From Leptasterias polaris (lineage: Eukaryota; Echinodermata; Asteroidea; Forcipulatida; Asteriidae), in the NCBI GenBank assembly GCA_037783415.1, contig JAZGTN010000054.1, positions 558,001 through 622,000 on the forward strand: 64,000 nt of DNA. The letters are read 5' to 3'. The translations under genes and the position numbers were made by a program. This document shows, in pieces, positions 739 through 42,576 of the stretch. The notes beneath the pieces are model-generated. The model did not search any database. It was given only the letters and a program-made list of their open reading frames with translations, and was not told the DNA's origin. Every line of letters starts with the position of its first letter. Position 1 is the first letter of the stretch.

Positions 739-744
739 TTTATT
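739..744 (-). terminator. Candidate poly(A) signal of DUF4773 gene I
   Basis: An AATAAA hexamer on the minus strand lies about 120 bases downstream of the predicted stop codon of gene I. The same hexamer at the same distance is present in copy II (13152-13157). No transcript evidence is available. Confidence 0.45.
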
Positions 745-862: not shown

Positions 863-3800
863 TCAAAAACCTCTAACTGGCTTGTGTGGAATCTTCAGTG
901 TGTTCCTTCCTGAAAAGATAAAGGTGTAAAACAGAAAGTGGTCATTTAAAAACTTGTATGTATGACTGAACATTATTTTACCTGATTTTTATGACAACGC
1001 CTTATATCTGCCATATCCACAATCTTACCTTTGAATGGTATCTTGAAACATCCCAAGTCCACCGTTGCAACAGTCTTACTGAACACCTTGCCCTCTAGGC
1101 GGGCACAAGCTTGCATGTCCGCCAATGACACGGCAATGTTGTACAATTCAACACACAACTCAGCACCGAATTTGTTTTCGCCCAGTTTCACGCAGACCGG
1201 ATCTGGATTTTGGACTGTGGAGAGAAAGAACAAAACATACATTAAGTTGTAGGCGATCCGTCTAGGTCGAGTTGGTATCCACAGAATGAAAAAGCCAATT
1301 GTTGCTTAGGCTGTCTGAGGTGGCTTCTTCTATGGCTCAGAAGGCCCATCCTTTTTGGCCATAGACTACTTGGCAAAAGTTACACGGTGTTAGTCAAAGG
1401 AACATTTTGGGAAATGGGAAATTTAGAAACTTCTCATCATTCCAATCCAATAATCGCAACAAACTCTCACTCAGCAATTTATTTGATCGTTTTCTTTGAT
1501 AATATTTACTCACTTGATACCGTTTTGTCGAAGAGGACTTTTCCATCCACGGAGAGAGACAATTTCACACCAATCTGCGTGGACAGGAATGTTACGTTGA
1601 CACAAGCTGTACAATTGGGAAAATTAATAATCAAATGTTTATAATTAAACAAACTTGCGCATACTTTGTTGTTGTTTGTTGGTAGGCACTTTGTGTATAT
1701 TTTATCAACGCACTTTTGCCTATACTCAATCATTGTTTCAATCTTGACTTAATTATCCCTTCTCGATATCCAAATCCACTTTTCAAAGGCCTACCTTGGG
1801 AATCGATGCCCACTTCCTTGATCTCAATATGCTGGCAACATCCACATGTCTTTTCTGAACATGCACAAGAAGAAGCGTCATTCAACTGCATGCTTTCTAA
1901 CAAGTTTGTCCAATCCATGGCCAGTGGATGGCCTGCTCCCAGCAAACCTGATGCTGCATTAAATATGGACAAAATAAGGGTATCAAAATTATGAATGACT
2001 CCAAACCAAACATGTTGGCAGAGTGATCATATTCAATCGCACAACCAAGCAATGCTTAAGTTGTATAATTTTTGAGAATTTTGTAAAGGTTATATCTATA
2101 AAATTGTTTCATGCATGTTGAAACGCTAATACTTGATTTGTGCATACTTTTAGACTGTGCTGCAAGTCTCGCGCGTATCCGAACGAGAAAACACGTCAAA
2201 CGAAGAACATTTTTGGCCATAGACTATACTTGGCAAAAGTCACCCCACGGTGTTAGTCAAAGGAACATTTTGGGAAATGGGAAATTTAGAAACTTCTCAT
2301 CATTCCAATCCAATAATCGCAACAAACTCTCACTCAGCAATTTATTTGATCGTTTTCTTTGATAATATTAATACTCACTTGACACCGTTTTGTCGAAGAG
2401 GACTTTTCCATCCACGGAGAGAGCCAATTTCACACCAATCTGCGTGGACAGGAATGTTACGTTGACACAAGCTGTACAATTGGGGAAATAACCAAATGTT
2501 AAATTAAACAAACTTGCATATACTTTGTTGTTGTTTGTAAATTGATAGGCACTTTGCTTATAGTTTATCAACGCACTTTTTCCTATACTCAATCAATGTT
2601 TCAATCTTGACTTAATCCCAAATCCACTTTTTATAGGCCTACCTTGGGAATTGATGCCCACTTCCTTGATCTCAATATGCTGGCAACATCCACATGTCTT
2701 TTCTGAACATGCACAAGAAGAAGCGTCATTCAACTGCATGCTTTTTAACAAGTTTGTCCAATCCATGGCCAGTGGATGGCCTGCTCCCAGCAAACCTGAT
2801 GCTGCATTTCAAAACAGGAACGGAATAAAATTAATGTGTAATTTTGACTATAACAAATAATATATGTTCAGGGACAGCAAGGTTTTAAAAAAGTCATAAC
2901 TACGGCAGTGCAATCACATCCAATTGACAGAACCAGGCAATTTGTTTTTTCCAGCAACTTTTTACACTCCTGTAAAACCGCCGGGTAGGAATTGACTCGG
3001 ATCTGGGTCCCATTGGGCTTATGACTCGTTTCTAGGTCAGTGTGACCCGGATAAAGAAATTGATCAAAATTACCCAGAAATGGGTCATAATGACGCAGAT
3101 TTCGAGTTAAATCCTATTTGTTTTAACCACTTTCAGGGTCATCCTGGCCCACAAATTGGTTCTGGCCCGCTGGGAACCTGGCATCCAGGTCAGTTCTAAC
3201 CCACCAATGGTTCTAGCCCATTGGGACCTGGAATCCAGGTCAGTTCTAACCCACCAATGGTTCTGGCCCGCTGGGACCTGGAATCCAGGTCAGTTCTAAC
3301 CAGGGAGTTTAAGAGTCTATTTCAATGATCTGATAAAATGGTTTAGTGGATGTTGAAGCATTAATACTTGGTTTGAGCCATATTTTGTTTCCTATTCCTT
3401 GCTTGTAAGACAAATTAAAATATTATATGAAGATGGTTAGGCCCTAAGTGTTACGTTTTAACTAACTGAGTGATAGACCTATCATGATCTTTTAATTTCA
3501 CGAAATCTTATTAATTTTTAAAGTGTGGTTGCCTATACAAGATCTTACCTTTGAATGGTATCCTGAAACATACCAAGTTCACCGTTACAATAGTTACACC
3601 AAACACATTGACCTCTAGAGGAACACAAATTTCCACGTCCTCCGACGACACGGTAACGTGCAATCCAACACACAACCCGGCACTAAATTCGTTTACGCCA
3701 ACATCCACGCAGACCGAAGCTTGAAATTGCGTGTCCACCAATGACACGGTAAAGTTGTGCAATTGAACACACAACTTGTCACCAAATTCGTTTTCGCCAA

Positions 3801-6800
3801 GCTTCATGCACACCGGATCTTGATGTTTGACTGTAGTGAAAAACACATTTTAAATAGTAGTATTAGTTCGATCCCTCTATGGTCGAGTTGGTCAAAATAG
3901 AATGGAAAAGCCAATTGTCAAACTGTCTGAGGTGGCTTCTTCGATCGCTCAGAAGACCCATCCTTGAGCTACAAACTACTTGGCAAAATTCACAGGGCGG
4001 CAGTAAAGGATCAAGGAAGTTCATTTGGGGAAATGGGAAAATTTGCAACACCTCATCATTCCAATCCAATAATCCAATAACAAAGAAAAGAACCCCACAA
4101 CACCAAGAACCCAGCTGTTTTAAAATAATGTTTTTAAAACTCTTGTCTTTATACTGTTATGGTGTTTATGCAATTTAAATTGTATAACGAGGATTGTAAG
4201 CAATTGTGGGTTTTTACATTTCCATTGTGTGCTTTTACTCTATGGTATATAATTAATTAACTATTTGTTAACTGATTTTCTGGTTTACTGTATATATTGT
4301 TGTGATTTCCTGTACAGCCCTTTGAGTTTTTATGTAAGGCGCTATATGAAGAATAAATTATTATTATTATAATTATTATTAATCGCTAACTTGCTCGTGA
4401 TTCTTTTTCTTTGATAATATAAATACTCACTTGACACCGTTTTGTCGGAGAGGACTTTTCCACCCAGAGAGAGAGTCAACTTCACACCATTCTGCGTGGA
4501 TAGGAATGTTACGTTTACACAAGCTGTACAAAAAGGGGGGGAATAAAATCTAAATAACTTTCCGAATTTTTGTTTCGCACTTTTGCCTATATACTTTACT
4601 AGTGATTCAATAAAGAAAAGTAATTTTATCATAAAATCTTTTTAGAAGCGGTCTGGGCTAAGTAAAGCATAGGCCTATTATACTATATGCAGCGGCGACA
4701 TTATTATTTTTCAAACAGTAGGCCAGCTATCATGTCAAAATTTATTAAAAAAATTGAATCGGTGTTTTAAAAAAACACCCCGCTCGATATCCAAATCCAC
4801 TTTTCAAAGGCCTACCTTGGGATTCGATGTCCGATTCCTTGATCTCAATATGCTGGCAACATCCACATGTCTTTTCTGAACATGCACAAGAAAAAGCGTC
4901 ATTCAGCTGCATGTTTTTTAACAAGTTTGTCCAATCCATAGCCAGTGGATGGCCTGCTCCCAGCAAACCTGATGCTGCATTAAATATGGACAAAATAAGG
5001 GTCTTATAATGACTCCAAACCAAAGATGTTGGCAGTGTGAGCATATCCAACCACACAACCAAGCAATGGTTAGTTTGCATCAACGTTTGTCTATGTAAAA
5101 ATTATGTACAAATTATATCTGATAAAATGGTTTAAAGGGTGTGTACAACATTGGTAATTGCCAAAGAACTGTTTCCAAACTTGATGTGACCCAACATATA
5201 CATAAAATAACAAACCTGTGAAAGTTTAAGCTAAATCGGTCTTCGGGGTCATGAGAAAACAGTGAAAAAACCTTATGTGTTTTAACTTCTTTTCAAACAT
5301 TGGAATTTATCCTGCAGGATAAAGACTATTATTTTACTCATTTCCTAAAAACTATGGCATTTCAAACAAAACTATTTCAAGGGAAGTTTTCCACCATGAC
5401 CATCTTTATACCATAAGTTATGTGCAAATCTGTGAACATTTATATTTTCGTTCTTACCAATTTTGTACACACCCTTTAATGCATTATGTTGAATCGCTAA
5501 TACTTGAGTACCTTAATTTGCATTCATATTATCCCTAACTTGTAAGAACTATAAAATGAACGTGCTTAGGCCCTAACTCTCAATTGAGATCGTGATCATT
5601 TCAATGCTACGAAATCTTATTAGTTTTTCAAGTGTGGTATCCACTCTACCTTTGAATGGTATCTTGAAACATCCCAAGTCCACCGTTGCAACAGTCTCAC
5701 TGAACACCTTGCCCTCTAGGCGGGCACAAGCTTGCATGTCCGCCAATGACACGGCAATGTTGTACAATTCAACACACAACTCAGCACCGAATTTGTTTTC
5801 GCCCAGTTTCACGCAGACCGGATCTGGATTTTTGACTGTGGAGAGAAAGAACAAAACATACATTAAGTTGTAGGCGATCCATCTAGGTCGAGTTGGTATC
5901 CACAGAATGAAAAAGCCAATTGTTGCTTATAGGCTGTCTGAGGTGGCTTCTTCTGTGGCTCAGAAGGCCCATCCTTTTTGGCCATAGACTACTTGGCAAA
6001 AGTCACCCCACGGTGTTAGTCAAAGGAACATTTTAGGAAATGGGAAATTTAGAAACTTCTCATCATTCAAATCCAATAATCGCACCAAACTCTCACTCAG
6101 CAACTTATTTGATCGTTTTCTTTAATATTTTACTCACTTGATACCGTTTTGTCGAAGAGGACTTTTCCATCCACGGAGAGAGCCAATTTCACACCGATCT
6201 GCGTGGACAGGAATGTTACGTTGACGCAAGCTGTACAATTGGGAAAATTAATAATCAAATGTTTATAATTAAACAAACTTGCGCATACTTTGTTGTTGTT
6301 TGTTGGTAGGCACTTTGTGTATATTTTATCAACGCACTTTTGCCTATACTCAATCATTGTTTCAATCTTGACTTAATTATCCCCTCTTGATATCCAAATA
6401 CACTTTTCAAAGGCCTACCTTGGGAATCGATGCCCACTTCCTTGATCTCAATATGCTGGCAACATCCACATGTCTTTTCTGAACATGCACAAGAAGAAAC
6501 GTCATTCAACTGCATGCTTTTCAACAAGTTCTCCAAGTCCAGGGTACTGTCGGAATCCAGGGGCCCTATGTTCACGGAAATATAAACAGGAGAGCATGCA
6601 ATTACAATGACCTGATTTGTTAAATGTTGGCCGATACCATGTTTGAAGGATGATCCAGACCATGATAATATTGAATTTCCCACAATCTGATCTTACTTCC
6701 TCTCCTTGCTGTTTCGCTTTGATTTTTTATTCACAGAACTAATATCATAACCAATAACGGAAGAGGCCAGCATGGAGGCACCCATACCGGTACTTAATTT

Positions 6801-8704
6801 AGATCCACACGCATGCGCATCAACTTTCTTTGGGCACAAGTACCTACAGCTAATAGTAATAGTGGCCCAAAATTTTCCCCCAAAGTTCCGAAATTTGACT
6901 TCTGAATGTTATGTCTGCGACTTTCTCCCCGAGTCGAAAATTTGACAGCAACAATCATGTTTCTCCCAAGTCACAGATTATTTTGTTCAGCAAATTTTAT
7001 ATTAATTTGCGATTTAACCCAACGGCAATAAAGGGACACAAAAGACTTATCTATTGACGTCTAATAATAATATTCATGCGAACAAATTTCGTGACTTATA
7101 CCCACAACATTGTCTAGAGTCCAACTTCCTCTGGGCCATCGGCTGAAGTCCCATACATGAAATTGATTATCAATGTTCGCGACTATGTGAAAAAGCGTGA
7201 AATCATTCATAGTGAAATTTTCCATCATTTCGGTTCTGTGTGTACCTCCAGGTCCATTTGCACACACTCCGCCACTTCGGACTTCATTGAGTCATAGAGC
7301 CAGTGTTGTAGTCGAGTCACCTGTGTCGAGTGCGAGTCCGAGTCTCAAGTCACTTGGGTCGAGTCCGAGTCCGAGTCCCGAGTCACTTGGTCCGAGGGGG
7401 AGTCCGGGTCACGAGTCACTTGGTCCGAGTCCGAGTCCGAGTCACGAGTCACTTGTTTTTTTTTTTATTGCGAACCAAATGTCGTAAAATAAGAATTGGA
7501 AATGCAAAATAAAACACATTTATTTTAAACAAAGTTCTGTTAAAGTTGGTATAACCAAAATAAAACAATACGGGGCGGAACGGCAGATGCCATGATTAAA
7601 AAAAATTTGTACTACTTTTTACTAGTGACGTGCCAAACTTGACGTCGTGTTTGTGTGTCGACCATGTGTAGAAACTGGTGCAAACAACACACAGCCATCA
7701 CAGTGCAATATGCAGGCTGTGTTTTACAGGTACCAGACATGCCATTTCCCTGGCATCAAGCAGTGGCTATGGTGTTAACGTTGACAGAATACCAGCATAA
7801 TACTGCTGGTGTCGTGCATCCCAGTGTTAATATGCGTACTGAACATACGAATCGAACATACACGCGCTGTACTTAGATGGCCATCTACACAATAATCATG
7901 AACACTATTACTTGCAACACCATACGACAGTACTTATTTATTGTGCTAGACGTTAACTCTATGACATGTGCACACCGGGAATGACGATCGGATCGTCGGA
8001 ATTGTTTTTAATATTTAAAAAAGGTATTGTTTGTAAAAAAAATACGTGACACGAGTCACGACTCCTCGGGGACAAGTCCGAGTCATGATAGTCGAGTCCG
8101 AGTCCGAGTCCGAGTCTTTTGCAGACGTGACTCGAATCAAGTCCGAGTCACCGAAATTGTGACTCGAGACGGACTCGAGTCCGAGTCCTGGACTCGAGTC
8201 ATACAACACTGCATAGAGCTATGTTAGAATCATACACGACCACTAATTCACTTGTATTACATTAAGACATTCGCACAGAGCACATATAGGGACAGGTAAA
8301 GAAACAAATTAACAGGTAACCAAATAAAAACAAATTAAAGTACAAGGTAAATTATAGTTCCCCATATTTGAAAGAAATAATATTACAAAGGATTACAATA
8401 ATTTTTTCTAAGGGAACGGAGTATAGGTACTAGGAGTTTTAATTAATTGATTTTTACCTGTCAAGTTTTGTTCTTTGCTTACCCTTTTAGGGGCTCCATA
8501 CCTTCGGAAACACAAGGATGTTATTATTTTTACATAAACCTGCATTTATTTAGGAAACAAAGAAAGTTTACCATTCTGATGCATCAACCAAACTGCCGAA
8601 TTATCTTTCGGAATCTGCAGTGCCGGCAGTGCAGATACGTCAGTTACGCACTGCACGCAAAACACAACGGCCAATATTGTCACCATCGGTACCAACGACA
8701 TCAT
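863..8704 (-). CDS. Secreted multi-DUF4773 protein, gene I (14 exons predicted)
   Basis: Predicted secreted, cysteine-rich protein of unknown function made of four tandem DUF4773-like modules. Exons in order: leader 8704-8572; module A 6565-6419, 6230-6138, 5835-5650; module B 4974-4816, 4523-4431, 3830-3549; module C 2801-2643, 2471-2379; module D 1953-1795, 1606-1514, 1214-1029; last exon 909-863 with TGA. All borders are GT-AG and phase 1; the total is 1830 bp, 609 aa. Residues 1-44 hold the signal peptide (MMSLVPMVTILAVVF, then a VSA cleavage-like site). A module has CxC-x4-CxCC, then ACVNVT (an N-glycosylation sequon), PDPVC, and three more Cys. Module B's third exon is 96 bp longer than usual; module C lacks its third exon. 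The start is the first real ATG after the TATA box; frame-open sequence further upstream has only non-ATG starts. The units could instead be separate transcripts, but internal first exons begin at splice acceptors and no second leader exon is seen. Confidence 0.75.
3149..3305. repeat. 50-bp minisatellite, about 3 copies
   Basis: A unit of about 50 bp (CCCACCAATGGTTCTGGCCC, then CTGGGACCTGGAATCCAGGT) repeats about three times. It lies between module B and module C of DUF4773 gene I. No counterpart is visible in copy II of the segmental duplication. Confidence 0.75.
4074..4380 (+). mobile_element. 5'-truncated LINE 3' end
   Basis: This AT-rich segment interrupts the module B intron between its second and third exons. 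It ends in GGCGCTATATGAAGAATAAA followed by a TTA-type microsatellite. The GCGCTATAT-plus-(ATT)n ending matches the 3' tail of the LINE at 23089-27085 in style but not base for base, so it is probably a related CR1/L2-like family. Other modules of the array lack it, so it is a later insertion. Confidence 0.6.
5132..5479. mobile_element. MITE with 26-bp terminal inverted repeats, copy 1
   Basis: The ends TTAAAGGGTGTGTACAA... and ...TTGTACACACCCTTTAA form an inverted repeat of about 26 bp with one mismatch. The interior is noncoding and matches 34500-34853 and 48140-48482. The junctions are compatible with a TTAA (piggyBac-like) or TA target site; the sequence does not decide between them. It lies between modules A and B of DUF4773 gene I. 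Confidence 0.75.
7301..8211. mobile_element. Non-autonomous hAT element with GAGTCC subterminal arrays
   Basis: The 911-bp element has inverted ends (CAGTGTTGTA on the left, TACAACACTG on the right) and is flanked by a perfect 8-bp target duplication CATAGAGC (7293-7300 and 8212-8219), the hAT signature. Both subterminal regions are arrays of GAGTCC/GAGTCAC hexamers. No transposase is encoded; a 73-codon open frame at 7655 has no family signature. Copy II of the segmental duplication has the matching empty site near 22062-22069. It sits in the first intron of DUF4773 gene I. Confidence 0.85.
8572..8704 (-). other. Leader exon (signal peptide) of DUF4773 gene I
   Basis: This 133-bp exon starts with tandem ATG ATG and encodes a hydrophobic signal peptide (LVPMVTILAVVFCV) followed by about 20 polar residues. 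It ends CAGAATG before a GTAAAC donor, phase 1. It is identical to 22416-22548. Only two leader exons exist in the window, one per four-module array, which is the main argument that each array is one gene. Confidence 0.8.
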
Positions 8705-8798
8705 GCTTGAATCACCGACACTGGACTTTGTTTCTTTTAGATTCAACTGCTTTCAATTCTGGTCACTCTAATTAGATCGAAGTCAGCTCATGGAGCCG

Positions 8799-8829
8799 TA
8801 TTTATAATACTTCTGGGTTGTTTACGTCA
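8799..8829 (-). promoter_or_regulatory. TATA box and CRE-like site, DUF4773 gene I
   Basis: On the minus strand a TATAAATA box (8799-8806) lies about 95 bases upstream of the leader ATG, and a TGACGTAA CRE/ATF-like site (8822-8829) lies just upstream of it. The same arrangement occurs in copy II. A focused, possibly cAMP- or stress-responsive promoter is an inference. Confidence 0.55.
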
Positions 8830-9727
8830 TGGGAACTTTTACGAAGAACTGGAAATCCTAGTACTCGGTTTCGTTATCGCGCCCTTCTAAACAAGGAAGT
8901 GTTCCAGAAACATGAGAAACTTTGGTACTAGTTTCCCGATCCAGGCCTCGCGCAGGATCTTCACAATTGTTAGTTTTGTGTCCACTCTTATTTGTGCGCT
9001 TATGATCAACATGTTTTAATGTCTTGTAATTAAACATTAATTTTTAGGCATTTAATACATAATACCAAGTGCAAATCAGAAGTCCTAACGCACACCAAAC
9101 TGTTGGTTATTTACAGAGAAAAGCAGATAAAACGTGACCGTGTACCAGATTCGTTTCACTTTACCTGGCTGCTTTGAACACGTAAAGCATATCCTGGTTC
9201 AGTCAACTTTAGTTGTCGAGTTAAATTACTTTCCTCATTACTGGCGAGGGCGGGGCACGTGCCCATTACCCCTTCCCCATCAATTGACGTCCGTACCCAC
9301 TAGTGCCCCTTCCCCAATCACACACACATTTGGAATCGGGAGTTTCTAAATAATAAAAAAATAACCAGAGTAAAATGTTACGTTTTATAAACTTTAATGT
9401 TATACTTTTAATGTTTACACACGGAAAACGCATTTGTTTTTACACTTTCAGAATGATCTTATAACACTAACCCTTAGTAAACTGCATAACAAGAGCGCTG
9501 AAAAGGGGCTTGTTTAAGATAAATACAAATGAGCTGCCGATCGCCTCATAGAAAAACATTGACTAATAGAAAAATCCAATCATTTACTGTTGTACATTGA
9601 GAACACAGCTCAGGAGAACGTTATTTTTGTGTTGTTTTTAAATTCTGGATGCATGCGTACCGATATCAAATGCGGTAGCAACTAGCCTGGTTCCGGTGGC
9701 ATGGTTATAGTTGCGGACTTGTGGTGT

Positions 9728-10478
9728 AAGCCTAGTACTAGTAGTTGCTTCACATTTTTGACGTTATTGGTGTGCTTACTGCTAGTTTTGTTGAGTAAAC
9801 GGTTATTTTAGCGAGCGACATTGCGATATTTAGGCTATTTTTAAGACCTATGTTCACAACTATTGTTTTCTTATGCTAAGCTATTGCAACCCCAGAACAC
9901 TGTCAAACCTACATGTACGAATAAACAGACATCTTTATTCAATTAATCAAATTTGAAAACTTATGTGTGTTTAAATTGTTATCTTTGTAAGTCATTGTAG
10001 ACCCACTGTTCTTGTATCCATCTCTCCTGCGCCAGGAGTGTCTTATGGACAGACATGGTGCATTACTAATGGGCATCACTATTAATATTATTATTGTCAT
10101 GATCGATTATCATTTTTAGGGTAACTATATCAGGTACCACTCCATTCATACTGTTGTTATTATAATTATATTATTTGTTTTCAAAACTAAAAAAGACATG
10201 TTGTATTACCATGTATTGATTAGTTTGGATTCACCAATCAGTGTATGAATGTATGAATAGAAATTAAACAAACAAACAAACCAACAAACAAACAACCCAA
10301 CAACCCAACAAACAAACAAACAAACAAACAAACTTATGAAGGTTTATTTTCCACACCCTTGGATAAAGTACGAGCGAAAAAATCTCAAATGAACGTCATG
10401 TATTTCAAAAATACTAAATTCTCTTATTAATTACATTAAATATGAAATAGGAAATGTTTCCAAGAAACGTCTTCCAGC
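9728..10478. other. Intergenic; possible LINE 3' remnant and (CAAA)n
   Basis: I see no gene. A stretch around 9990-10262 resembles a degraded LINE 3' end (repeated TGTATGAA just before an A-rich tail), and a (CAAA)n microsatellite occupies about 10265-10333. The left edge marks the end of segmental duplication copy I. Confidence 0.4.
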
Positions 10479-11348
10479 CAAGGGCGTCGATCGCTACTGA
10501 AAAGTAGGGGGGACGGGCGAGCAAGTCTTGACAAAATACATCTTACATTATTTGCACCCCACACCATTAGGCCTACTTTTACATTTAATTTCTGTGTTAC
10601 ACTTTTTGTTCCCTATTTTTTGTTTGACCAGGAGGCGAGTTACGGGGGTGATATTTAACAGTAACATCATCCGAAAATGGTGTTTGGGCCTGGGTTTCCC
10701 TTATGTAAAACCGAGATTCTACCAAATACAAACATGCTTCGGGAGTCCGGCGTTTATCGTGTGTCAGCTTGAAGTTCTTCGAAAAAACAAAATACTGCTT
10801 CTTCGACAAATCTTGTCATGACCCAAACTGCTCCTATTTATTTTAATGGATTTTACTACATTTTGTGCGTTGTGCGGTTGTAAAAAAATGTAACACATTT
10901 GCACGTGCGCGATGTGGAGGGATGTGTACCGTACATTATAGCATACACAAACGACGCATAACTTGAATGCTAACAAGGTATATGTAAGCGGGATTTTGGC
11001 GTTCATGTCTTGGACGAAACTTGTCGTCTAGCCTATTGTCTGTATTATAGAAACGGAAATAGACCCAAAATACCATTCTGCGCGTGGTCCATCAGAACAA
11101 AAGATGCAAATGAAGAAAACATTAATTTCACCGTTTGTTCGCTATACTTTTATTTGAACAAAAAATGTAATGAAATATTAAATCTAGAAAATGGTGTATA
11201 TTTTTATATGTTGTTGCATATTTCTAATGAACAGTCAATCAAAAAGTGGGGGGGACATCTGATATGCTGTCCCCCCCCCCCCAGTCTAAAAAGTGGGGGG
11301 GGGGGGGGGGGGACATGTCCCCCCCGTCCCCACCCATCGACGCCCTTG
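10479..11348. mobile_element. Non-autonomous hAT element, family CAAGGGCGTCGAT, copy 1
   Basis: The 870-bp element begins CAAGGGCGTCGAT and ends with the inverted ATCGACGCCCTTG. It is flanked by the 8-bp target duplication CTTCCAGC (10471-10478 and 11349-11356). The right part has long G and C runs forming a GGGGGGACATGTCCCCCC palindrome. It shares its interior with 43358-44008, which has its own distinct 8-bp duplication. There is no transposase coding sequence. Confidence 0.85.
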
Positions 11349-11477
11349 CTTCCAGCACGTCTTCCAGATAGATCATATAAATGTTGAATATCCTAATTTC
11401 TATCTACACTCACTTTATTTATTTTGTTTCCTTACATGTAGCTTTGATTCCCGTGTAAAAGATAGCAGTGGCATTAA

Positions 11478-11881
11478 TTATCATAATGCATGTTATATTG
11501 TGTTTTCTTTTCAAACTGATGCTAGTATATAACAGCAGACTGGGTGGGTGCTTCATTACAGTAGGGTCTCACCTCTTCTGAATGCAACCGCCATTCCCAC
11601 CAGTAATAACAATGATTTGTTCACTACCCATAACTATTCAAAATTTGTTACATTTATGTTGTAAAAATGGAAATAGCCAAACAAACAAAACACCCCAACA
11701 AACTTTCTAGTGAAAACCTTATATTCTGATTTCATCAGAAACTATAATTCAATTTTGCTGAGGAAAAGTCCCATCCAGACTGAAAACAATTTCGTTTTAA
11801 GTTACTTTCTTTTTGATAAGTTTTACAACAATTCTTTTCTTCAAACTAATCTTTGATTTTTTCTCTTTAAATGTGCGGTAA
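11478..11881. repeat. 404-bp near-identical dispersed repeat, copy 1
   Basis: This segment is almost identical to 29911-30314. It is noncoding and has no obvious terminal inverted repeats or flanking duplication. Copy 2 abuts the Penelope-like remnant. The high identity over 18 kb suggests recent copying or gene conversion. Confidence 0.8.
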
Positions 11882-13021
11882 TTTTATGTTTAAGGGACAC
11901 ACCAGCTTCGTTGGGCTATTTGGGCTACAAAATATAGACTATAAAACATGACTACAATGGTCTTCTGGGAATGGAGGAGAACGGTTCTTTAAAAAATCAA
12001 TCAAACTTTGCCGTTTTCGAGCATTTTTCAAAAAACAAAGGTCACGTGGGTTATCCGAACCACATTTTTGGTTCGGATAACCCTCGTGATCTTCGGAGTT
12101 AGTTTTACTTCCAGCCGTAGGCCTATACAAATTTATTACTGCACCAAAATCAGCTCTGTTTTTTACAATTAATCTTGAGTATTTTACAATCCGCGCCTGA
12201 TATACCCTACTCATCATTGGCAGATTGAGTGCAATTCATTGAATGAAAGTTAATAAAACTTTCTCAAATCTATGATAAAAGCTAAGGCCTATTTAAGACA
12301 TTAATTTAATTTTCTAGTAAAATCGGCCAAAAATCGGACCTATAGCTGTAGCTCAGTCTCATGCATGCTCCTAACAAATGTCTTTCAAAAACAAAATTGC
12401 CTCCTCGCATGACGACAATCCACCAACACAACAAAAAAAGGATTCCGAAAATACATACGTTTTAAAATGTACCCATGCAGTCAGCAGGTTCCCTTGTGGT
12501 TTACTAATAGTACGTTGATAACATCACCAAAACCATATGAACCTCATCTTGGTAAATTCGATTTACTATGATGGGGTTATACTGTGCCCCTCCTTTCATT
12601 TAGGGTCGTGATTAGAATTTTGTTTTAAAGACATAAAATAGCCAAGGTATACAACGTCTACAGCGATACAGGCCCACTCCCACCCCAAGTTTCTGCTCAT
12701 TAAAAGTCGAACATGTAAACTCGCGCATGTTTGTTACTTTTTGAATTACGGCGGTTTGTTTTACACAGAATATAATCAAACGGGGTTTTTTTACATCAGA
12801 GAGAAAGTTTGTTTTCTTGAATTTACATTATAGGCCCTGTATAAACATTATTAAGTGTGATGCACAATGCATAACATGGATACAATCTAATCGTTTTTTC
12901 AGGTTTTTAATGGGTTTTTTAAGCCATTAGGCCATAAGCACAACTTTGGTATAACTGTTTTCATCGCATATTATGGAAATATCTGTGGCGATGATCATTC
13001 AAGGCCAAAATGTCGGCGCCG
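11882..13021. other. Intergenic stretch with a strong hairpin
   Basis: I see no gene in this 1.1-kb stretch. It contains the 22-bp-stem hairpin at 12040-12091 and otherwise AT-rich sequence up to the start of segmental duplication copy II. Confidence 0.4.
12040..12091. repeat. 22-bp stem hairpin
   Basis: The arms GGTCACGTGGGTTATCCGAA (plus CC) and GGTTCGGATAACCCTCGTGA (plus TC) pair at 20 of 22 positions around an 8-base loop. It could be a small foldback repeat or, if transcribed, a stem-loop RNA. No function can be assigned. Confidence 0.6.
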
Positions 13022-13151
13022 TCAGTCAGGGATTTTACACCGGCGATTTGCGTGATTAGATTGACTTAAACACCATCTTATAATATGAATATGATATGTT
13101 CAAAGTATTTGCTTTTACATTTAATTTGATATAATCTGTGTAATAATAGTA

Positions 13152-13157
13152 TTTATT
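13152..13157 (-). terminator. Candidate poly(A) signal of DUF4773 gene II
   Basis: An AATAAA on the minus strand about 120 bases past the predicted stop codon of gene II, conserved with copy I. Confidence 0.45.
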
Positions 13158-13278
13158 TGCCATATATTCGTTATTTTGTCAACCTCATTGCAGGATCTCC
13201 GGCTCCTCTCATTAGGTACTAGCTAGTATTATAATATAATTATTCGCTTCATATCATCAAGAGCAGTTCTCCTTTAAC

Positions 13279-16200
13279 TCAAAAACCTCTAACTGGCTTG
13301 TGTGGAATCTTCAGTGTGTTCCTTCCTGAAAAGATAAAGGTGTAAAACAAAAAGTGGTCATTTAAAAACTTGTATGTATGACTGAACATTATTTTACCTG
13401 ATTTTTATGACAACGCCTTATATCTGCCATATCCACAATCTTACCTTTGAATGGTATCTTGAAACATCCCAAGTCCACCGTTGCAACAGTCTCACTGAAC
13501 ACCTTGCCCTCTAGGCGGACACAAGCTTGCATGTCCGCCAATGACACGGCAATGTTGTACAATTCAACACACAACTCAGCACCGAATTTGTTTTCGCCCA
13601 GTTTCACGCAGACCGGATCTGGATTTTTGACTGTGGAGAGAAAGAACAAAACATACATTAAGTTGTAGGCGATCCGTCTAGGTCGAGTTGGTATCCACAG
13701 AATGAAAAAGCCAATTGTTGCTTAGGCTGTCTGAGGTGGCTTCTTCTATGGCTCAGAAGGCCCATCCTTTTTGGCCATAGACTACTTGGCAAAAGTTACA
13801 CGGTGTTAGTCAAAGGAACATTTTGGGAAATGGGAAATTTAGAAACTTGTCATCATTCCAATCCAATAATCGCAACAAACTCTCATTCAGCAATTTATTT
13901 GATCGTTTTCTTTGATAATATTAATACTCACTTGATACCGTTTTGTCGAAGAGGACTTTTCCATCCACGGAGAGAGCCAATTTCACACCAATCTGCGTGG
14001 ACAGGAATGTTACGTTGACACAAGCTGTACAATTGGGGAAATAATCAAATGTTTATAATTAAACAAACTTGATATCAAATCACAAACCACAAGGGAAACT
14101 GACTGGGTAAATTTTAATGATTTTGGGTTGGACAAGGAAAAATTGACTAGAGCGGGATTTGAACCAACGACCTCCGGATTGACGTGCCGGCGCTCCACCA
14201 ACTGAGCTATCTAGCCCTATGAGGGCGGTCTCCCTATTTTGTCAATATCCTTGTTCGGTGGGTGCCAGTCAGAAGCCATTCAACCGTAAACTGCCCTGTA
14301 GCCAAGGATCACACACCCGAGTTTAAGATACAACCTGGGAAACGGCAGCCAGTGGATCACCATAAGGGGATGCGACTTTTTATATCAGATATCAAATAAC
14401 AAACCACAAGGGAAACTGACTGGGTAAATTTTAATGATTTTGGGTTGAACAAGGAAACATTGACTAGAGCGGGATTTGAACCAACGACCTCCGGATTGAC
14501 GTGCCGGCGCTCTACAAACTTAAACAAACTTGAGCATACTTTGTTGTTTGTTGGTATAGGCACTTTGGGTATATAATCAAAGCACTTTTGCCTATACTCA
14601 ACCACTGTTTCAATTTTGACTTAATTATCCCTTCTCGATATCCAAATCCACTTTTCAAAGGCCTACCTTGGGAATCGATGCCCACTTCCTTGATCTCAAT
14701 ATGCTGGCAACATCCACATGTCTTTTCTGAACATGCACAAGAAGAAGCGTCATTCAACTGCATGCTTTCTAACAAGTTTGTCCAATCCATGGCCAGTGGA
14801 TGGCCTGCTCCCAGCAAACCTGATGCTGCATTAAATATGGACAAAATAAGGGTATCAAAATTATGAATGACTCCAAACCAAACATGTTGGCAGAGTGATC
14901 ATATTCAATCGCACAACCAAGCAATGCTTAAGTTGTATAATTTTTGAGAATTTTGTAAAGGTTATATCTATAAAATTGTTTCATGCATGTTGAAACGCTA
15001 ATACTTGATTTGTGCATACTTTATAGACTGTGCTGCAAGTCTCGCGCGTATCCGAACGAGAAAACACGTCAAACGAAGAACATTTTTATTTCTGAAATCA
15101 AATCTTTGTTTTAAAATATATCTCATGACAAAATCTGAACAACAAAAATAAATCATTACATTTTTTATGAAATTAGTCATAGCTTTTGAACAAAATACGC
15201 CAAAGTGTGTTAATTATTATTGAAAACAAATTAAAACTCTGGGACAAGGATGCTTTTTTGATGTTAACTTTTTAGAAACCCCTTACGCGGATTCGTGATG
15301 GTCAAATGGGGTTAAAATTTACCCGTATCGCAGTTTAAAGAGGGTGCTGACGCCTCAACACCATACTTTGCAATTACAGCATCTGGCGATTATAATCGCG
15401 CATCCAAAACAAGCTTTTACATAAGTTTTATGATCGGAGGTGAGCACAAAATTCTTAATTTTTTGCTATAACCGGAAGCTAAGGTCAAGTTTAATTCTCG
15501 GGTTTTCTTCGTTATATTGTTGAATTGGTTTTACTTTCATATGTTGTTATCACTTAGTATTACATTCCCAACAACATGTATAATTTTCTAGGTCATAAAC
15601 TACGTTAAACTAAAATAATTGACGAAACAAAATCTCGCCCACGTTAAACTCCATATGGTTGGGACCACTATGGCCCCGGAAGTTCGAATGCGCGCGAGAC
15701 TTGCACAGTCTATTCCTATCCCTAACTTGTAAGAACTATAAAATGAACACGGTAAGGCCAAACTCTCAACTGAGATCATGATCGTTTCAGTAATCTTATA
15801 AGTTTTTGAAATGTGGTGTCCACTCTTACCTTTGAATGGTATCTTGAAACATCCCAAGTCCACCGTTGCAACAGTCTTACTGAACACCTTGCCCTCTAGG
15901 CGGGCACAAGCTTGCATGTCCGCCAATGACACGGCAATGTTGTACAATTCAACACACAACTCAGCACCGAATTTGTTTTCGCCCAGTTTCACGCAGACCG
16001 GATCTGGATTTTTGACTGTGGAGAGAAAGAACAAAACATACATTAAGTTGTAGGCGATCCGTCTAGGTCGAGTTGGTATCCACAGAATGAAAAAGCCAAT
16101 TGTTGCTTAGGCTGTCTGAGGTGGCTTCTTCTATGGCTCAGAAGGCCCATCCTTTTTGGCCATAGACTACTTGGCAAAAGTTACACGGTGTTAGTCAAAG

Positions 16201-19200
16201 GAACATTTTGGGAAATGGGAAATTTAGAAACTTCTCATCATTCCAATCCAATAATCGCAACAAACTCTCACTCAGCAATTTATTTGATCGTTTTCTTTGA
16301 TAATATTTACTCACTTGATACCGTTTTGTCGAAGAGGACTTTTCCATCCACGGAGAGAGACAATTTCACACCAATCTGCGTGGACAGGAATGTTACGTTG
16401 ACACAAGCTGTACAATTGGGAAAATTAATAATCAAATGTTTATAATTAAACAAACTTGCGCATACTTTGTTGTTGTTTGTTGGTAGGCACTTTGTGTATA
16501 TTTTATCAACGCACTTTTGCCTATACTCAATCATTGTTTCAATCTTGACTTAATTATCCCTTCTCGATATCCAAATCCACTTTTCAAAGGCCTACCTTGG
16601 GAATCGATGCCCACTTCCTTGATCTCAATATGCTGGCAACATCCACATGTCTTTTCTGAACATGCACAAGAAGAAGCGTCATTCAACTGCATGCTTTCTA
16701 ACAAGTTTGTCCAATCCATGGCCAGTGGATGGCCTGCTCCCAGCAAACCTGATGCTGCATTAAATATGGACAAAATAAGGGTATCAAAATTATGAATGAC
16801 TCCAAACCAAACATGTTGGCAGAGTGATCATATTCAATCGCACAACCAAGCAATGCTTAAGGTGTATAATTTTTGAGAATTTTGTAAAGGTTATATCTAT
16901 AAAATTGTTTCATGCATGTTGAAACGCTAATACTTGATTTGTGCATACTTTTAGACTGTGCTGCAAGTTTCGCGCGTATCCGAACGAGAAAACACGTCAA
17001 ACGAAGAACATTTTTATTTCTGAAATCAAATCTTTGTTTTAAAATATATCTCATGACAAAATCTGAACAACAAAAATAAATCATTACATTTTTTATGAAA
17101 TTAGTCATAGCTTTTGAACAAAATACGCCAAAGTGTGTTAATTATTATTGAAAACAAATTAAAACTCTGGGACAAGGATGCTTTTTTGATGTTAACTTTT
17201 TAGAAACCCCTTACGCGGATTCGTGATGGTCAAACGGGGTTAAAATTTACCCGTATCGCAGTTTAAAGAGGGTGCTGACGCCTCAACACCATACTTTGCA
17301 ATTACAGCATCTGGCGATTATAATCGCGCATCCAAAACAAGCTTTTACATAAGTTTTATGATCGGAGGTGAGCACAAAATTCTTAATTTTTTGCTATAAC
17401 CGGAAGCTAAGGTCAAGTTTAATTCTCGGGTTTTCTTCGTTATATTGTTGAATTGGTTTTACTTTCATATGTTGTTATCACTTAGTATTACATTCCCAAC
17501 AACATGTATACTTTTCTAGGTCAAAAACTACGTTAAACTAAAATAATTGACGAAACAAAATCTCGCCCACGTAAAACTCCATATGGTTGGGACCACTATG
17601 GTCCCGGAAGTTCGAATGCGCGCGAGACTTGCACAGTCTATTCCTATCCCTAACTTGTAAGAACTATAAAATGAACACGGTAAGGCCAAACTCTCAACTG
17701 AGATCATGATCGTTTCAGTAATCTTATAAGTTTTTGAAATGTGGTGTCCACTCTTACCTTTGAATGGTATCTTGAAACATCCCAAGTCCACCGTTGCAAC
17801 AGTCTTACTGAACACCTTGCCCTCTAGGCGGGCACAAGCTTGCATGTCCGCCAATGACACGGCAATGTTGTACAATTCAACACACAACTCAGCACCGAAT
17901 TTGTTTTCGCCCAGTTTCACGCAGACCGGATCTGGATTTTTGACTGTGGAGAGAAAGAACAAAACATACATTAAGTTGTAGGCGATCCGTCTAGGTCGAG
18001 TTGGTATCCACAGAATGAAAAAGCCAATTGTTGCTTAGGCTGTCTGAGGTGGCTTCTTCTATGGCTCAGAAGGCCCATCCTTTTTGGCCATAGACTACTT
18101 GGCAAAAGTTACACGGTGTTAGTCAAAGGAACATTTTGGGAAATGGGAAATTTAGAAACTTCTCATCATTCCAATCCAATAATCGCAACAAACTCTCACT
18201 CAGCAATTTATTTGATCGTTTTCTTTGATAATATTTACTCACTTGATACCGTTTTGTCGAAGAGGACTTTTCCATCCACGGAGAGAGACAATTTCACACC
18301 AATCTGCGTGGACAGGAATGTTACGTTGACACAAGCTGTACAATTGGGAAAATTAATAATCAAATGTTTATAATTAAACAAACTTGCGCATACTTTGTTG
18401 TTGTTTGTTGGTAGGCACTTTGTGTATATTTTATCAACGCACTTTTGCCTATACTCAATCATTGTTTCAATCTTGACTTAATTATCCCTTCTCGATATCC
18501 AAATCCACTTTTCAAAGGCCTACCTTGGGAATCGATGCCCACTTCCTTGATCTCAATATGCTGGCAACATCCACATGTCTTTTCTGAACATGCACAAGAA
18601 GAAGCGTCATTCAACTGCATGCTTTCTAACAAGTTTGTCCAATCCATGGCCAGTGGATGGCCTGCTCCCAGCAAACCTGATGCTGCATTAAATATGGACA
18701 AAATAAGGGTATCAAAATTATGAATGACTCCAAACCAAACATGTTGGCAGAGTGATCATATTCAATCGCACAACCAAGCAATGCTTAAGTTGTATAATTT
18801 TTGAGAATTTTGTAAAGGTTATATCTATAAAATTGTTTCATGCATGTTGAAACGCTAATACTTGATTTGTGCATACTTTATAGACTGTGCTGCAAGTCTC
18901 GCGCGTATCCGAACGAGAAAACACGTCAAACGAAGAAAAAATTTATTTCTGAAATCAAATCTTTGTTTTAAAATATATCTCATGACAAAATCTGAACAAC
19001 AAAAATAAATCGTTACATTTTTTATGAAATTAGTCATAGCTTTTGAACAAAATACGCCAAAGTGTGTTAATTATTATTGAAAACAAATTAAAACTCTGGG
19101 ACAAGGATGCTTTTTTGATGTTAACTTTTTAGAAACCCCTTACGCGGATTCGTGATGGTCAAACGGGGGTTAAAATTTACCCGTATCGCAGTTTAAAGAG

Positions 19201-22200
19201 GGTGCTGACGCCTCAACACCATACTTTGCAATTACAGCATCAGGCGATTATAATCGCGCATCCAAAACAAGCTTTTACGTACGTTTTATGATCGGAGGTG
19301 AGCACAAAATTCTTAATATTTTGCTATAACCGGAAGCTAAGGTCAAGTTTAATTCTCGGGTTTTCTTCGTTATATTGTTGAATTGGTTTTACTTTCATAT
19401 GTTGTTATCACTTAGTATTACATTCCCAACAACATGTATACTTTTCTAGGTCAAAAACTACGTTAAACTAAAATAATTGACGAAACAAAATCTCGCCCAC
19501 GTAAAACTCCATATGGTTGGGACCACTATGGTCCCGGAAGTTCGAATGCGCGCGAGACTTGCACAGTCTATTCCTATCCCTAACTTGTAAGAACTATAAA
19601 ATGAACACGGTAAGGCCAAACTCTCAACTGAGATCATGATCGTTTCAGTAATCTTATAAGTTTTTGAAATGTGGTGTCCACTCTTACCTTTGAATGGTAT
19701 CTTGAAACATCCCAAGTCCACCGTTGCAACAGTCTTACTGAACACCTTGCCCTCTAGGCGGGCACAAGCTTGCATGTCCGCCAATGACACGGCAATGTTG
19801 TACAATTCAACACACAACTCAGCACCGAATTTGTTTTCGCCCAGTTTCACGCAGACCGGATCTGGATTTTTGACTGTGGAGAGAAAGAACAAAACATACA
19901 TTAAGTTGTAGGCGATCCGTCTAGGTCGAGTTGGTATCCACAGAATGAAAAAGCCAATTGTTGCTTAGGCTGTCTGAGGTGGCTTCTTCTATGGCTCAGA
20001 AGGCCCATCCTTTTTGGCCATAGACTACTTGGCAAAAGTTACACGGTGTTAGTCAAAGGAACATTTTGGGAAATGGGAAATTTAGAAACTTCTCATCATT
20101 CCAATCCAATAATCGCAACAAACTCTCACTCAGCAATTTATTTGATCGTTTTCTTTAATAATATTTACTCACTTGATACCGTTTTGTCGAAGAGGACTTT
20201 TCCATCCACGGAGAGAGCCAATTTCACACCAATCTGCGTGGACAGGAATGTTACGTTGACACAAGCTGTACAATTGGGAAAATTAATAATCAAATGTTTA
20301 TAATTAAACAAACTTGCGCATACTTTGTTGTTGTTTGTTGGTAGGCACTTTGCTTATAGTTTATCAACGCACTTTTGCCTATACTCAATCAATGTTTCAA
20401 TCTTGACTTAATTATCCCTTCTCGATACCCAAATCCACTTTTTATAGGCCTACCTTGGGAATCGATGCCCACTTCCTTGATCTCAATATGCTGGCAACAT
20501 CCACATGTCTTTTCTGAACATGCACAAGAAGAAGCGTCATTCAACTGCATGCTTTTCATCAAGTTCTCCAAGTCCACGGTACTGTCGGAATCCAGGGGCC
20601 CTGTGTTCACGGAAATATAAACAGGGGAGAGCATGCAATTACAATGACCTGATTTGTTAAATGTTGGCCGATACCATGGTTTGAAGGATGATCCGGACAT
20701 GATTCTTTGGATTTCCCACAGTCTGATCTCACTTCCTCTCCTTGCAGTTTCGTTTTGATTTTTTATTCCGAACCAATATCCAATAACGGAAGAGGCCAGC
20801 AGGAATACACAATGTGTGTTTTACGTCAATTGACCTAAACCAGTGTTCATATTTTGGAAATATGAAGGTTTTTTGAAACCTAGTTTAGAACGTCCTCGGT
20901 GACGGTCTCCCTCTACAAAATTCTCCTGCGGAGGGACTTTTTTTTTCGTGAAAGATGCACCCTTATTTTTAATTCCAGCACTTGTAATGTACTAATACGG
21001 TACATGAGAAACCAGCGAAGCTCCGAGGTGAAATCAGGAGTTTTACGATATCCGATAGAAATTTGTTTGCGAATACAGGATTTGCCATAGGTTTCAACGT
21101 TTGTAAAAGAAATTGTTTTGTATGGGTGGGTAAATTGTTTTGTATGGGTGGTAAAGTATTACATACGAAGTGTGGAACTGAGAACAAAAGAGGTCCACAT
21201 AAGGCAGGGTTTTGAAACACTATTGGACTTACACACGTCCACACAGAGTTATTTACAGTGTTGCGGAATAGGGTTTTTCTCAAGTGTAGAACAAAGGAAT
21301 GTCCACACAGTGACTGCAACATGCGTGCTCTCACTTTCGAAACCTTATGGAAACCAAGAACAAATTGTCAAATTCGTACCGACATCCACAATGCAGCAGA
21401 GTATCAATCAATCAAACAATCAATCGATCATGAATCAAACAATCAGTCCAACAAGGGGGTGTGTGATGGAATGATCTTAAACACGGGGCAATGTGCCCTT
21501 AATAATAATCCTCTACAATCCACTGCCGGTATTTTTCAGTTCCACGAACTTCTGCCCAAGCGAGAAATATAAAAACGAACATGGAAATACCCATATCGGT
21601 ATACTTAAAAGCCACACGCATGCGCATCAACTTTCTTTTGGCACAAGCACTACAGCTAATGGTGGCCCAAGTTTTCACCCCAAAAATATGAAATTTTACG
21701 TCAAATTTTATGTCTGCAACTTTCTCCCCGAGTCGAAAATTTGACAGCAACAATCATGTTTCTCCCAAGTCACATTTCATATTAATTTGCGATTTAACCC
21801 AATGGAAATAAAGGGACACAAAAGACTTATCTATTGACGTCTAATATTCATGCGAACAAATTTCGCGACTTTTACCCACAACATTTTGTCTAGAGTATTT
21901 GGGGTCCTAATTCCTCTGGGCCATCGGGTGAAGTCGCACATGAAATTGATATCATTGTTCAAAGCGTGAAATCATTCATAGTGAAATTTGCCATCAATAT
22001 TTCGTGTGTCCCTCCTGCAGGTCTATAATGCACCCAATTGCCACTAAGGACTTCGTCGAGTCAAAGAGCTGCTAGAATCATACATGTATAAGATATTCGC
22101 ACAGAGCCAAGTAAAGAAACGAATTAACAGGTAAAACAAAATACAAACATAAAAAGAACAAGGTACATTATAGTTCCCCATATTTATAACTTGAGTTCGT

Positions 22201-22548
22201 TCCCTTGATGACCTATTGAGCGAAATAACATTTCAAAGGAACACAATAATTATTTCTAAGGGAGCGGAGTACGGTATAGGAGTTTCAATTTATTTGTTTA
22301 CCTGTTTAGTTGTTTCCTTTACTTACCCTTTAAGGGGCTCCATACCTTTGGAAACACAAGGATGTTATTATTTTTACATAAACCTGCATTTATTTAGGAA
22401 ACAAAGAAAGTTTACCATTCTGATGCATCAACCAAACTGCCGAATTATCTTTCGGAATCTGCAGTGCCGGCAGTGCAGATACGTCAGTTACGCACTGCAC
22501 GCAAAACACAACGGCCAATATTGTCACCATCGGTACCAACGACATCAT
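13279..22548 (-). CDS. Secreted tetra-DUF4773 protein, gene II (14 exons predicted)
   Basis: Predicted secreted protein of unknown function with four complete DUF4773-like modules. Exons: leader 22548-22416; A 20600-20454, 20265-20173, 19873-19688; B 18682-18524, 18335-18243, 17943-17758; C 16754-16596, 16407-16315, 16015-15830; D 14825-14667, 14024-13932, 13630-13445; last 13325-13279. All introns are phase 1 and GT-AG; the total is 1920 bp, 639 aa (leader 1-44, modules 45-186, 187-332, 333-478, 479-624, tail 15 aa). Module A has a distinct first exon (GPLDSDSTVDLENL) that joins the leader; modules B-D start ASGLLGAGHPLAMDW. Each module has 10 Cys: five in CACSEKTCGCC, one in ACVNVT, then PVC, ELC, QAC and GC. 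The pattern and spacing match the DUF4773 family, usually single-domain secreted proteins in arthropods and other invertebrates. Retention of the intron after exon 13630-13445 would give an alternative tail ending RRCHKNQVK. Confidence 0.8.
13445..20600. repeat. Tandem array of ~1.93-kb units carrying DUF4773 modules
   Basis: Four units in direct orientation each hold one three-exon module. The period is 1928 bp between units C and B and 1930 bp between B and A. Introns and inter-module spacers are nearly identical between units, not just the exons, which points to recent unequal crossing-over or gene conversion. Unit D is lengthened by the tRNA-like insertion. Confidence 0.9.
14073..14519 (-). 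mobile_element. tRNA-Asp-like retroelement, truncated dimer, 14-bp target duplication
   Basis: This 447-bp insertion splits the intron between the first and second exons of module D of gene II. It is flanked by a perfect 14-bp duplication TTAAACAAACTTGA (14059-14072 and 14520-14533), typical of LINE-driven target-primed insertion. On the minus strand it carries a tRNA-like head with an A box (TAGCTCAGTTGG) and a B box (GGTTCAAATCC), and the anticodon-loop position reads GTC. One head is complete and a second is truncated, giving a head-to-tail dimer of about 1.4 units (unit about 319 bp). The acceptor-stem pairing is poor, so this is not a functional tRNA gene. Confidence 0.75.
20805..21580. 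other. Insertion specific to copy II, identity unknown
   Basis: About 770 bp here has no counterpart in copy I, which runs from the GGAAGAGGCCAGCA motif (near 6750) directly to the CCACACGCATGCGCATCAAC motif. It includes CAAT-type simple repeats near 21405-21450. Open frames on both strands lack recognisable domains. I cannot see clear terminal repeats. Confidence 0.45.
22416..22548 (-). other. Leader exon (signal peptide) of DUF4773 gene II
   Basis: Identical to 8572-8704. It encodes the signal peptide and a short polar linker and ends in phase 1 before GTAAAC. It joins the module A first exon at 20600, giving the reading ...HQN-GPLDSD. Confidence 0.8.
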
Positions 22549-22642: not shown

Positions 22643-22673
22643 TATTTATAATACTTCTGGGTTGTTTACGTCA
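22643..22673 (-). promoter_or_regulatory. TATA box and CRE-like site, DUF4773 gene II
   Basis: A minus-strand TATAAATA (22643-22650) with TGACGTAA (22666-22673) just upstream, about 95-125 bases above the leader ATG. It is the same as in copy I, so the two genes are probably co-regulated. Confidence 0.55.
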
Positions 22674-42500: not shown

Positions 42501-42576
42501 CAGCTGAGAGAAAACATATGATGTTTAATAACCGAAAGAAGAATGGTAAACAGAAATAACCGGGATATTTCGCCAT
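30600..42576 (-). CDS. Secreted GH3 beta-xylosidase-like enzyme, gene A
   Basis: Ten exons: 42576-42239, 41479-41320, 40726-40556, 39050-38959, 35875-35401, 34089-33867, 33313-33224, 32063-31852, 31449-31246, 30893-30600 (TGA). They sum to 2259 bp, 752 aa, all GT-AG, phases 2,0,0,2,0,1,1,0,0. An N-terminal hydrophobic signal (residues about 1-30) precedes AFPF and a GH3 N-terminal barrel. Seen: GPYNWNTECIHGD, TEFGFQGYVVSDQ with the probable nucleophile Asp284, Lys202-His203 in SAGCKHF, and ESEGNDR with the likely acid/base Glu near 491-493. The last two exons form the C-terminal fibronectin III-like domain (FYPFGYGLSYTQF-type motif, here LYPFGYGLSYTQF). GH3 xylosidase relatives cleave terminal beta-xylosyl or arabinosyl residues from plant or algal polysaccharide; the exact substrate here is inferred. 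Gene B upstream is its tandem paralogue. Confidence 0.9.
30951..31046. repeat. 43-bp tandem repeat, about 2.2 copies
   Basis: Units starting ATTGAATGTG at 30951, 30994 and 31037, in the last intron of GH3 gene A. Confidence 0.7.
34500..34853. mobile_element. MITE with AAAGGG termini, copy 2
   Basis: Same family as 5132-5479: TTAAAGGG at the left, CCCTTTAA at the right, and the shared interior (ACCTGTGAAAGTTTAAGCT and CATGACCATCTTTATA). The copy is divergent. It sits in the intron between exons 5 and 6 of GH3 gene A. Confidence 0.7.
36035..36098. repeat. 12-bp tandem repeat, about 5 copies
   Basis: The unit ACACAATGTGCA repeats about five times with a final variant, in intron 4 of GH3 gene A just before the large minisatellite. 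Confidence 0.8.
36130..38935. repeat. 55-bp minisatellite, ~2.8 kb, with higher-order structure
   Basis: About 50 copies of a 55-bp unit (CTCACACTCAGAAACCCATA, ATAAAGACTCCATCTCATAC, ACACTACTGTGAGAA) fill most of intron 4 of GH3 gene A; the first 120 bp are degenerate. Many units contain the palindrome TGAGTACTCA, extended to TGTGAGTACTCACA in some. Variant units recur at a 548-bp spacing (for example 37863 and 38411, 38139 and 38687), giving a higher-order repeat of about ten units. Repeated short open frames in it are artefacts of the repetition. Confidence 0.95.
39975..40090. repeat. G/A-rich low-complexity tract
   Basis: A purine-rich tract of GGGGGGAAAAA-type repeats in intron 3 of GH3 gene A. 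On one strand it is almost free of pyrimidines and could form triplex or G-quadruplex structures. No coding content. Confidence 0.7.
40228..40502. mobile_element. Foldback element with 89-bp inverted arms
   Basis: The left arm (40228-40316, start CCTATACAGCAATCCTTCAC) and right arm (40414-40502) are inverted copies with only a few mismatches and a 97-bp spacer. Both arms include AGATCGGTGAAGG or its complement and a GTACCTGGGTGGTACTGCGC-type core. It is a noncoding MITE/foldback in intron 3 of GH3 gene A, between exons 4 and 3. A target duplication is not evident. Confidence 0.8.
41872..41925 (-). pseudogene. Duplicated 5' end of GH3 exon 1 inside intron 1
   Basis: About 50 bp nearly identical to the start of exon 1 (42521-42576). 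On the minus strand it retains an ATG at 41920-41918 and reads MAKYPGYFCLPFFF, then diverges into a frame that stops 35 codons after the ATG. More distant upstream flanks also show spaced similarity (around 42100 and 42820), so promoter plus exon start may have been duplicated together. It probably does not give a functional enzyme because the GH3 part of exon 1 is missing. Confidence 0.65.

Follow-up and report, generated by a model that had tools for sequence, protein, structure and literature searches.

Single-domain DUF4773 proteins, for example those of Crassostrea virginica (P0008) and Owenia (P0016), carry, in one module, the same cysteine frame as the sea-star chains considered here. 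Our literature search found no assigned function for DUF4773 and no description of multi-module DUF4773 proteins. The published cases come from distant animals, are single mentions, and concern expression or presence, not function. In oyster haemocytes, a DUF4773 gene is over-represented (log2FC 2.45, with presence in 34% of the remaining cells) in cluster 1, a cluster of macrophage-like cells according to the authors (PMC12064177). A DUF4773 protein is contained in octopus skin mucus (PMC11431876), and in the locust a DUF4773 transcript is approximately 601-fold up in pleuropodia as compared with legs (PMC6966819).

Sequence databases do contain multi-module members. The protein search with the 633-aa product of gene II, one of the two genes analysed below, yielded seven matches with 6, 5, 6, 2, 2, 3, and 3 DUF4773 stretches; multi-module proteins were observed in Asterias rubens (6 and 5), Patiria (6), Acanthaster (2), Solemya (2), and Mytilus (3). 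This search covered proteins of 0.55–1.75 times the query length among the best 8000 candidates, and hence speaks of the existence and not the frequency of multi-module entries, all of which are database predictions. The first-pass annotation had regarded a four-module chain as apparently undescribed. Given database proteins with two to six stretches, including longer arrays in A. rubens and P. miniata, the multi-module form could at most be new to the literature, as the databases already contain it.

The window, i.e., the whole analysed stretch of 64,000 bp from Leptasterias polaris, corresponds to positions 558001–622000 of contig C54; the searches of the whole assembly covered 629.7 Mb in 334 contigs. 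Exon borders re-derived from the sequence define two tandem genes on the minus strand, gene II (22548–13279) and gene I (8704–863). Both start with one leader exon, followed by repeated three-exon A-B-C cassettes and a short terminal exon:

22643–22650, minus strand: TATAAATA 5' of gene II
22416–22548, minus strand: gene II leader exon with the start codon and a hydrophobic N-terminus (133 bp; identical to the gene I leader)
20173–20600, minus strand: gene II module 1, exons A (20454–20600, 147 bp) and B (20173–20265, 93 bp)
19688–19873, minus strand: gene II module 1, exon C (186 bp; exon match to PF15998)
17758–18676, minus strand: gene II module 2 (A 18524–18676, B 18243–18335, C 17758–17943)
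15830–16748, minus strand: gene II module 3 (A 16596–16748, B 16315–16407, C 15830–16015)
13445–14819, minus strand: gene II module 4 (A 14667–14819, B 13932–14024, C 13445–13630)
13279–13325, minus strand: gene II last exon with the stop codon (47 bp)
13152–13157, minus strand: AATAAA 3' of gene II
8799–8806, minus strand: TATAAATA 5' of gene I
8572–8704, minus strand: gene I leader exon (133 bp)
5650–6565, minus strand: gene I module 1 (A 6419–6565, B 6138–6230, C 5650–5835)
4431–4968, minus strand: gene I module 2, exons A (4816–4968) and B (4431–4523)
3549–3830, minus strand: gene I module 2, exon C' (282 bp), an internally duplicated C
2379–2795, minus strand: gene I half-module 3, without a C exon (A 2643–2795, B 2379–2471)
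1029–1947, minus strand: gene I module 4 (A 1795–1947, B 1514–1606, C 1029–1214)
863–909, minus strand: gene I last exon with the stop codon (47 bp)
739–744, minus strand: AATAAA 3' of gene I (a second AATAAA is at 543–548)

Gene II consists of 14 exons between the ATG at 22548 and the stop at 13279, with lengths of 133, 147, 93, 186, three times 153, 93, and 186, and finally 47 bp (1902 bp, 633 aa). Gene I, from the ATG at 8704 to the stop at 863, has 13 exons of 133, 147, 93, 186, 153, 93, 282, 153, 93, 153, 93, 186, and 47 bp (1812 bp, 603 aa), in the order ABC, ABC', AB, ABC. All 25 introns (13 in gene II and 12 in gene I) have GT-AG borders and are in phase 1. The 14-exon and 13-segment models proposed earlier thus stand on the re-derived borders, as does the claim that every junction is in phase 1, and the models support tandem paralogues with in-frame multi-module chains. 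The proposed leader and short last exon are present in both genes, whereas the four modules hold for gene II and not for gene I. The exon sums differ from the 1920 and 1830 bp given before: in each gene, three non-first A exons have a second in-frame AG six bases upstream (ATGCAG/CATCAG), and the earlier totals require its use in all three (3 × 6 = 18 bp). Judged by the sequence, either of the two in-frame AGs could be the acceptor. In each gene, TATAAATA is situated 95–102 bases 5' of the ATG, and AATAAA is located 3' of the stop; an extra copy of TATAAATA in gene II intron 1 (22181–22188) is taken as chance. Since a module is one A-B-C cassette flanked by phase-1 introns, cassettes or single exons could be gained, lost, or skipped in frame.

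Directly upstream of gene II, a 1029-codon open frame (23887–26976, plus strand) encodes endonuclease and reverse-transcriptase domains of the LINE type, and an open frame with a THAP domain is located at 59014–59439 (plus strand). Two glycoside hydrolase family 3 exons (35386–35886 and 49942–50526, minus strand), together with two similar leader-like open frames lacking a Pfam match (42235–42582 and 58004–58360, minus strand), suggest at least two tandem secreted GH3 genes. A minisatellite at 36248–38933, in which a 55-bp unit is present 49 times, is strongly strand-skewed, and a 50-bp tandem repeat in three copies (3148–3301) lies in the gene I intron that separates module 2 from module 3. 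tRNA-Asp-like stretches were observed at 14144–14216 and 54211–54283 (minus strand); the former, apparently of SINE origin, is part of an insert, itself partly duplicated, between exons A and B of gene II module 4.

The assignment to DUF4773, which the absence of a PF15998 match would have overturned, is borne out by both chains: gene II scores 358.6 bits (1.1e-108) in four stretches and gene I 285.7 bits in five, far above the curated cut-off of 27 bits, and three single units scored alone reach 97.6, 77.9, and 45.9 bits. The domain is not complete in every unit, as gene I half-module 3 covers only positions 2–56 of the 118 in the profile, and gene I module 2 matches in two stretches, the best of them covering profile positions 2–83. 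Other Pfam matches to the chains, among them Plk4_PB1 in gene II (28.5 bits; cut-off 26.4) and FAM194 in gene I (27.3 bits; cut-off 27), which narrowly exceed their whole-protein cut-offs, were dismissed: they lie within DUF4773 modules and are absent from the single-module scan, and hence look like weak scores added up over the repeats.

In the alignment, the gene II module has the cysteine frame CxC-x4-CxCC ... C ... PxPxC ... C ... C ... C, which is shared by 30 aligned database members of the family. Exon A encodes the CxC-x4-CGCC part, exon B the part with N-x-T, and exon C the remaining cysteines. Of the 42 cysteines counted in gene II, the hydrophobic N-terminus contributes two and every module ten; each module also has one N-x-T site. 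Module 2 differs from its A. rubens counterpart at 1 of 61 residues in exon C, 6 of 24 in the A part, and 2 of 30 in B; exon C, with the fewest differences, may therefore hold the most constrained surface. A PDB sequence search gave no solved relative up to E 10.

The closest protein relative of gene II is A. rubens LOC117295440 (86–87% identity), whose isoforms X2 (P0001) and X3 (P0002) have the same leader, 144-residue DUF4773 modules, and short tail. X2 has six stretches, and X3 has five plus a stretch like C' of gene I; gene II has four, and gene I has C' along with three and a half. Gene II therefore fits the multi-module sea-star type of leader, 144-residue repeats, and short tail, and gene I fits it in part. 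Patiria miniata LOC119741641 (P0003) has six DUF4773 stretches with a period of 144, of which five are nearly alike. It differs from gene II in its lower identity (59%), in its last module, which is divergent and forms a pair with Acanthaster module 2, and in the deposited model, which by eye has no evident signal peptide. Mytilus californianus (P0006, three modules) and Solemya velum (P0005, two) resemble the sea-star chains in having several modules, but these are unlike one another in sequence and stand apart from the sea-star modules in the tree. A query with an 11-row module alignment matched 34 of 567 candidates in a length-limited search, all with PF15998 and 69–263 aa long; with a 201-aa query of one module, none of 54 candidates matched at E 0.001, and the family search over 14 control genomes gave no match in any of them.

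Elsewhere in the genome, a single-domain DUF4773 gene is present in two copies approximately 11.8 kb apart (contig C119, 2833176–2845177). Phase-1 borders before B and between B and C are at array-like places in these copies, and a stop ends C; a cysteine-motif scan of the plus strand found no exon A upstream. Because the B and C borders are shared, at least the B and C part of the cassette is not peculiar to the array. Within the window and the 10 kb before it, tblastn with gene II and P0003 listed no DUF4773 match outside gene I and gene II.

The likeness between modules extends into non-coding DNA. Gene II modules 2 and 3 are identical over 919 bp, 487 bp of which are intron, and gene I module 4 differs from gene II module 2 by one base in 919 bp, introns included. 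Across the whole units of approximately 1.93 kb, gene II modules 2 and 3 differ at 10 aligned sites and are hence distinct copies. The following features mark the history of these units:

16952–17642: high-copy mobile-element-like insert (approximately 690 bp) in an intron separating two gene II modules
~15023–15714 and ~18880–19572: further copies of this insert in gene II
~2150–2214: remnant of the insert in gene I
8506–9244: near-identical patch covering leader and promoter (2 mismatches against gene II)

The insert has inverted ends and 2687 candidates in the assembly at first look, 40 of which were scored. Its three copies in gene II occupy the same intron place with 98–100% identity, whereas the other full-length copies listed show 89–94%; the pattern thus suggests one insertion that was then copied along with the 1.93-kb unit.

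Between the two genes, divergence is patchy. Near-identical patches adjoin intron diverged by 10–15%: next to the leader and promoter patch, region 8263–8505 has 32 mismatches (2/652 in the patch vs. 32/310 in its diverged neighbour; Fisher p 1.7e-14). The other end of intron 1 has 35/238 mismatches, and in its middle more than half of the sites mismatch in a forced alignment, while region 705–1019 shows one mismatch plus a 3-column gap. Given this patchiness, we rejected a simple recent whole-gene duplication. In the tree of 31 modules (25 different rows), modules group by species, namely those of the window (92/83), those of A. rubens (97/94), and Patiria modules 1–5 (98/91); Patiria module 6 pairs with Acanthaster module 2 (97/93). 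The window group is under the star level of the tool, and the node uniting it with A. rubens has weak support (80/40). As expected under concerted evolution, the proteins are more alike within than between species, and the likeness of introns was seen within this genome. Identical introns are not explained by selective conservation, and these observations point to gene conversion or unequal exchange in recent times, after an old duplication. The array would have grown through duplication of units of approximately 1.93 kb, and the sequence pattern suggests that unequal exchange and gene conversion keep modules alike within species and also between gene I and gene II.

Gene I could represent either a functional variant or a copy in decay. 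Following the intron, its positions 1901–2214 match 14773–15087 of gene II, and the sequence then jumps to one matching 16153–16416, with the junction at:

2210–2214: deletion junction in comparison with gene II, with 5-bp TTTTT common to both sides

By this comparison, the AB half-module 3 arose by a deletion of approximately 1.07 kb relative to gene II that removed exon C. Along with the half-domain that is left (55 of 118 profile positions), the donor after module 1 exon C is weakened (GTAGAG, with GTAAGA after the other C exons), and gene I therefore possibly does not make the predicted chain. A decaying copy that stays in frame only through its symmetric internal exons would also account for module 2 exon A, which taken alone has no visible constraint (dN 0.061, dS 0.067). 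On the other hand, the 13-exon frame has no internal stop, and promoter and leader are retained. Exon C' repeats part of C internally (it matches C twice, at 1–104 and 107–282), is open, and is identical at 67 of 92 residues to the additional stretch in isoform X3 of A. rubens; it therefore arose before these species separated and is very likely coding. In module 2, exons A and B differ from those of gene II module 2 at 9/153 and 10/93 positions, far less than the introns (83/188 and 66/285 differences plus gaps), and dN/dS values are 0.068/0.139 over A and B together and 0.080/0.246 for B, with few changes in each case. By these measures, exon C' and module 2 of gene I appear to be under constraint, and we consider decay a possible but not the favoured state of the gene.

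The N-terminus, hydrophobic when read by eye, would serve as a cleaved signal peptide. Behind it, the chain is predicted to form a string of beads, each with ten cysteines and probably five disulfides, and each presumably bearing one N-glycan at its conserved N-x-T site. In an epithelial, mucous, or coelomic secretion, such a chain could act as a multivalent binder. Among the roles weighed, multivalent binding as part of barrier or immune secretions would be the most likely, albeit tentatively; an adhesive or structural secretion comes second and a reproductive protein third. The oyster, octopus, and locust cases speak for the first of these roles. The main text of the A. rubens coelomocyte proteome has no occurrence of "DUF".

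As a component of a structural or adhesive secretion (tube-foot glue or a mucus scaffold), the beads would provide cohesion. Tandem EGF-like, cysteine-rich repeats are called common in marine adhesives (PMC9382459), and the octopus DUF4773 protein comes from skin mucus (PMC11431876). Yet the A. rubens footprint catalogue names other domains, and its main text has no "DUF" (PMC9382459), which does not amount to absence from the footprint; we regard this role as rather unlikely.

Abalone VERL is a reproductive protein with repeats that evolve in concert, and a sea-star bindin paper (PMC3605852) reportedly mentions concerted evolution and gene conversion. An egg-coat or sperm-egg recognition protein with such repeats would fit the species-by-species homogenisation seen here. 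The family contexts found are haemocytes, mucus, and pleuropodia instead, and module 2 exon C, which differs from A. rubens at a single one of its 61 residues, is unlike rapid recognition evolution, so that a reproductive role seems improbable.

An assembly artefact, with haplotypes placed in tandem or units misassembled, is very unlikely to account for the two genes or for the identity between modules. The 919-bp identity of gene II modules 2 and 3 is indeed hard for assemblers, but their 1.93-kb units carry the 10 differing sites noted above, and A. rubens and P. miniata entries have similar arrays. False duplication of haplotypes in particular is unlikely, as module make-up differs between the genes, intron 1 is strongly diverged (most of it unalike in the forced alignment), and all matches listed in two DNA searches (12/12 and 2/2) are on contig C54 alone. 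That each cassette yields its own short mRNA seems unlikely in the extreme, because a leader and promoter query over the 629.7-Mb assembly listed two matches, gene I and gene II, and later modules lack a leader exon; the region has two leader exons and two last exons, to be set against the short lengths of the 34 DUF4773 proteins matched by the length-limited module search.

We therefore consider it highly probable that the locus comprises two tandem genes, each encoding one secreted DUF4773 chain, shaped by unit duplication and conversion. As such, it is a clear example of both processes acting on an exon-cassette gene, marked by a copied mobile-element-like insert. The find extends existing database predictions in a family that spans molluscs and arthropods to sea stars. 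The four-bead array, the single-domain pair of the same genome, and the half-module paralogue form a natural series for the effect of module number. A more speculative reading, to which we give little weight, is that the two genes are a self-homogenising pair of immune or barrier effectors: cassettes would vary module number and exon choice between species and paralogues, and perhaps between splice forms or individuals, and conversion would spread an optimised module, thereby tuning avidity. If this is true, the pair would represent a new class of multivalent DUF4773 binders.
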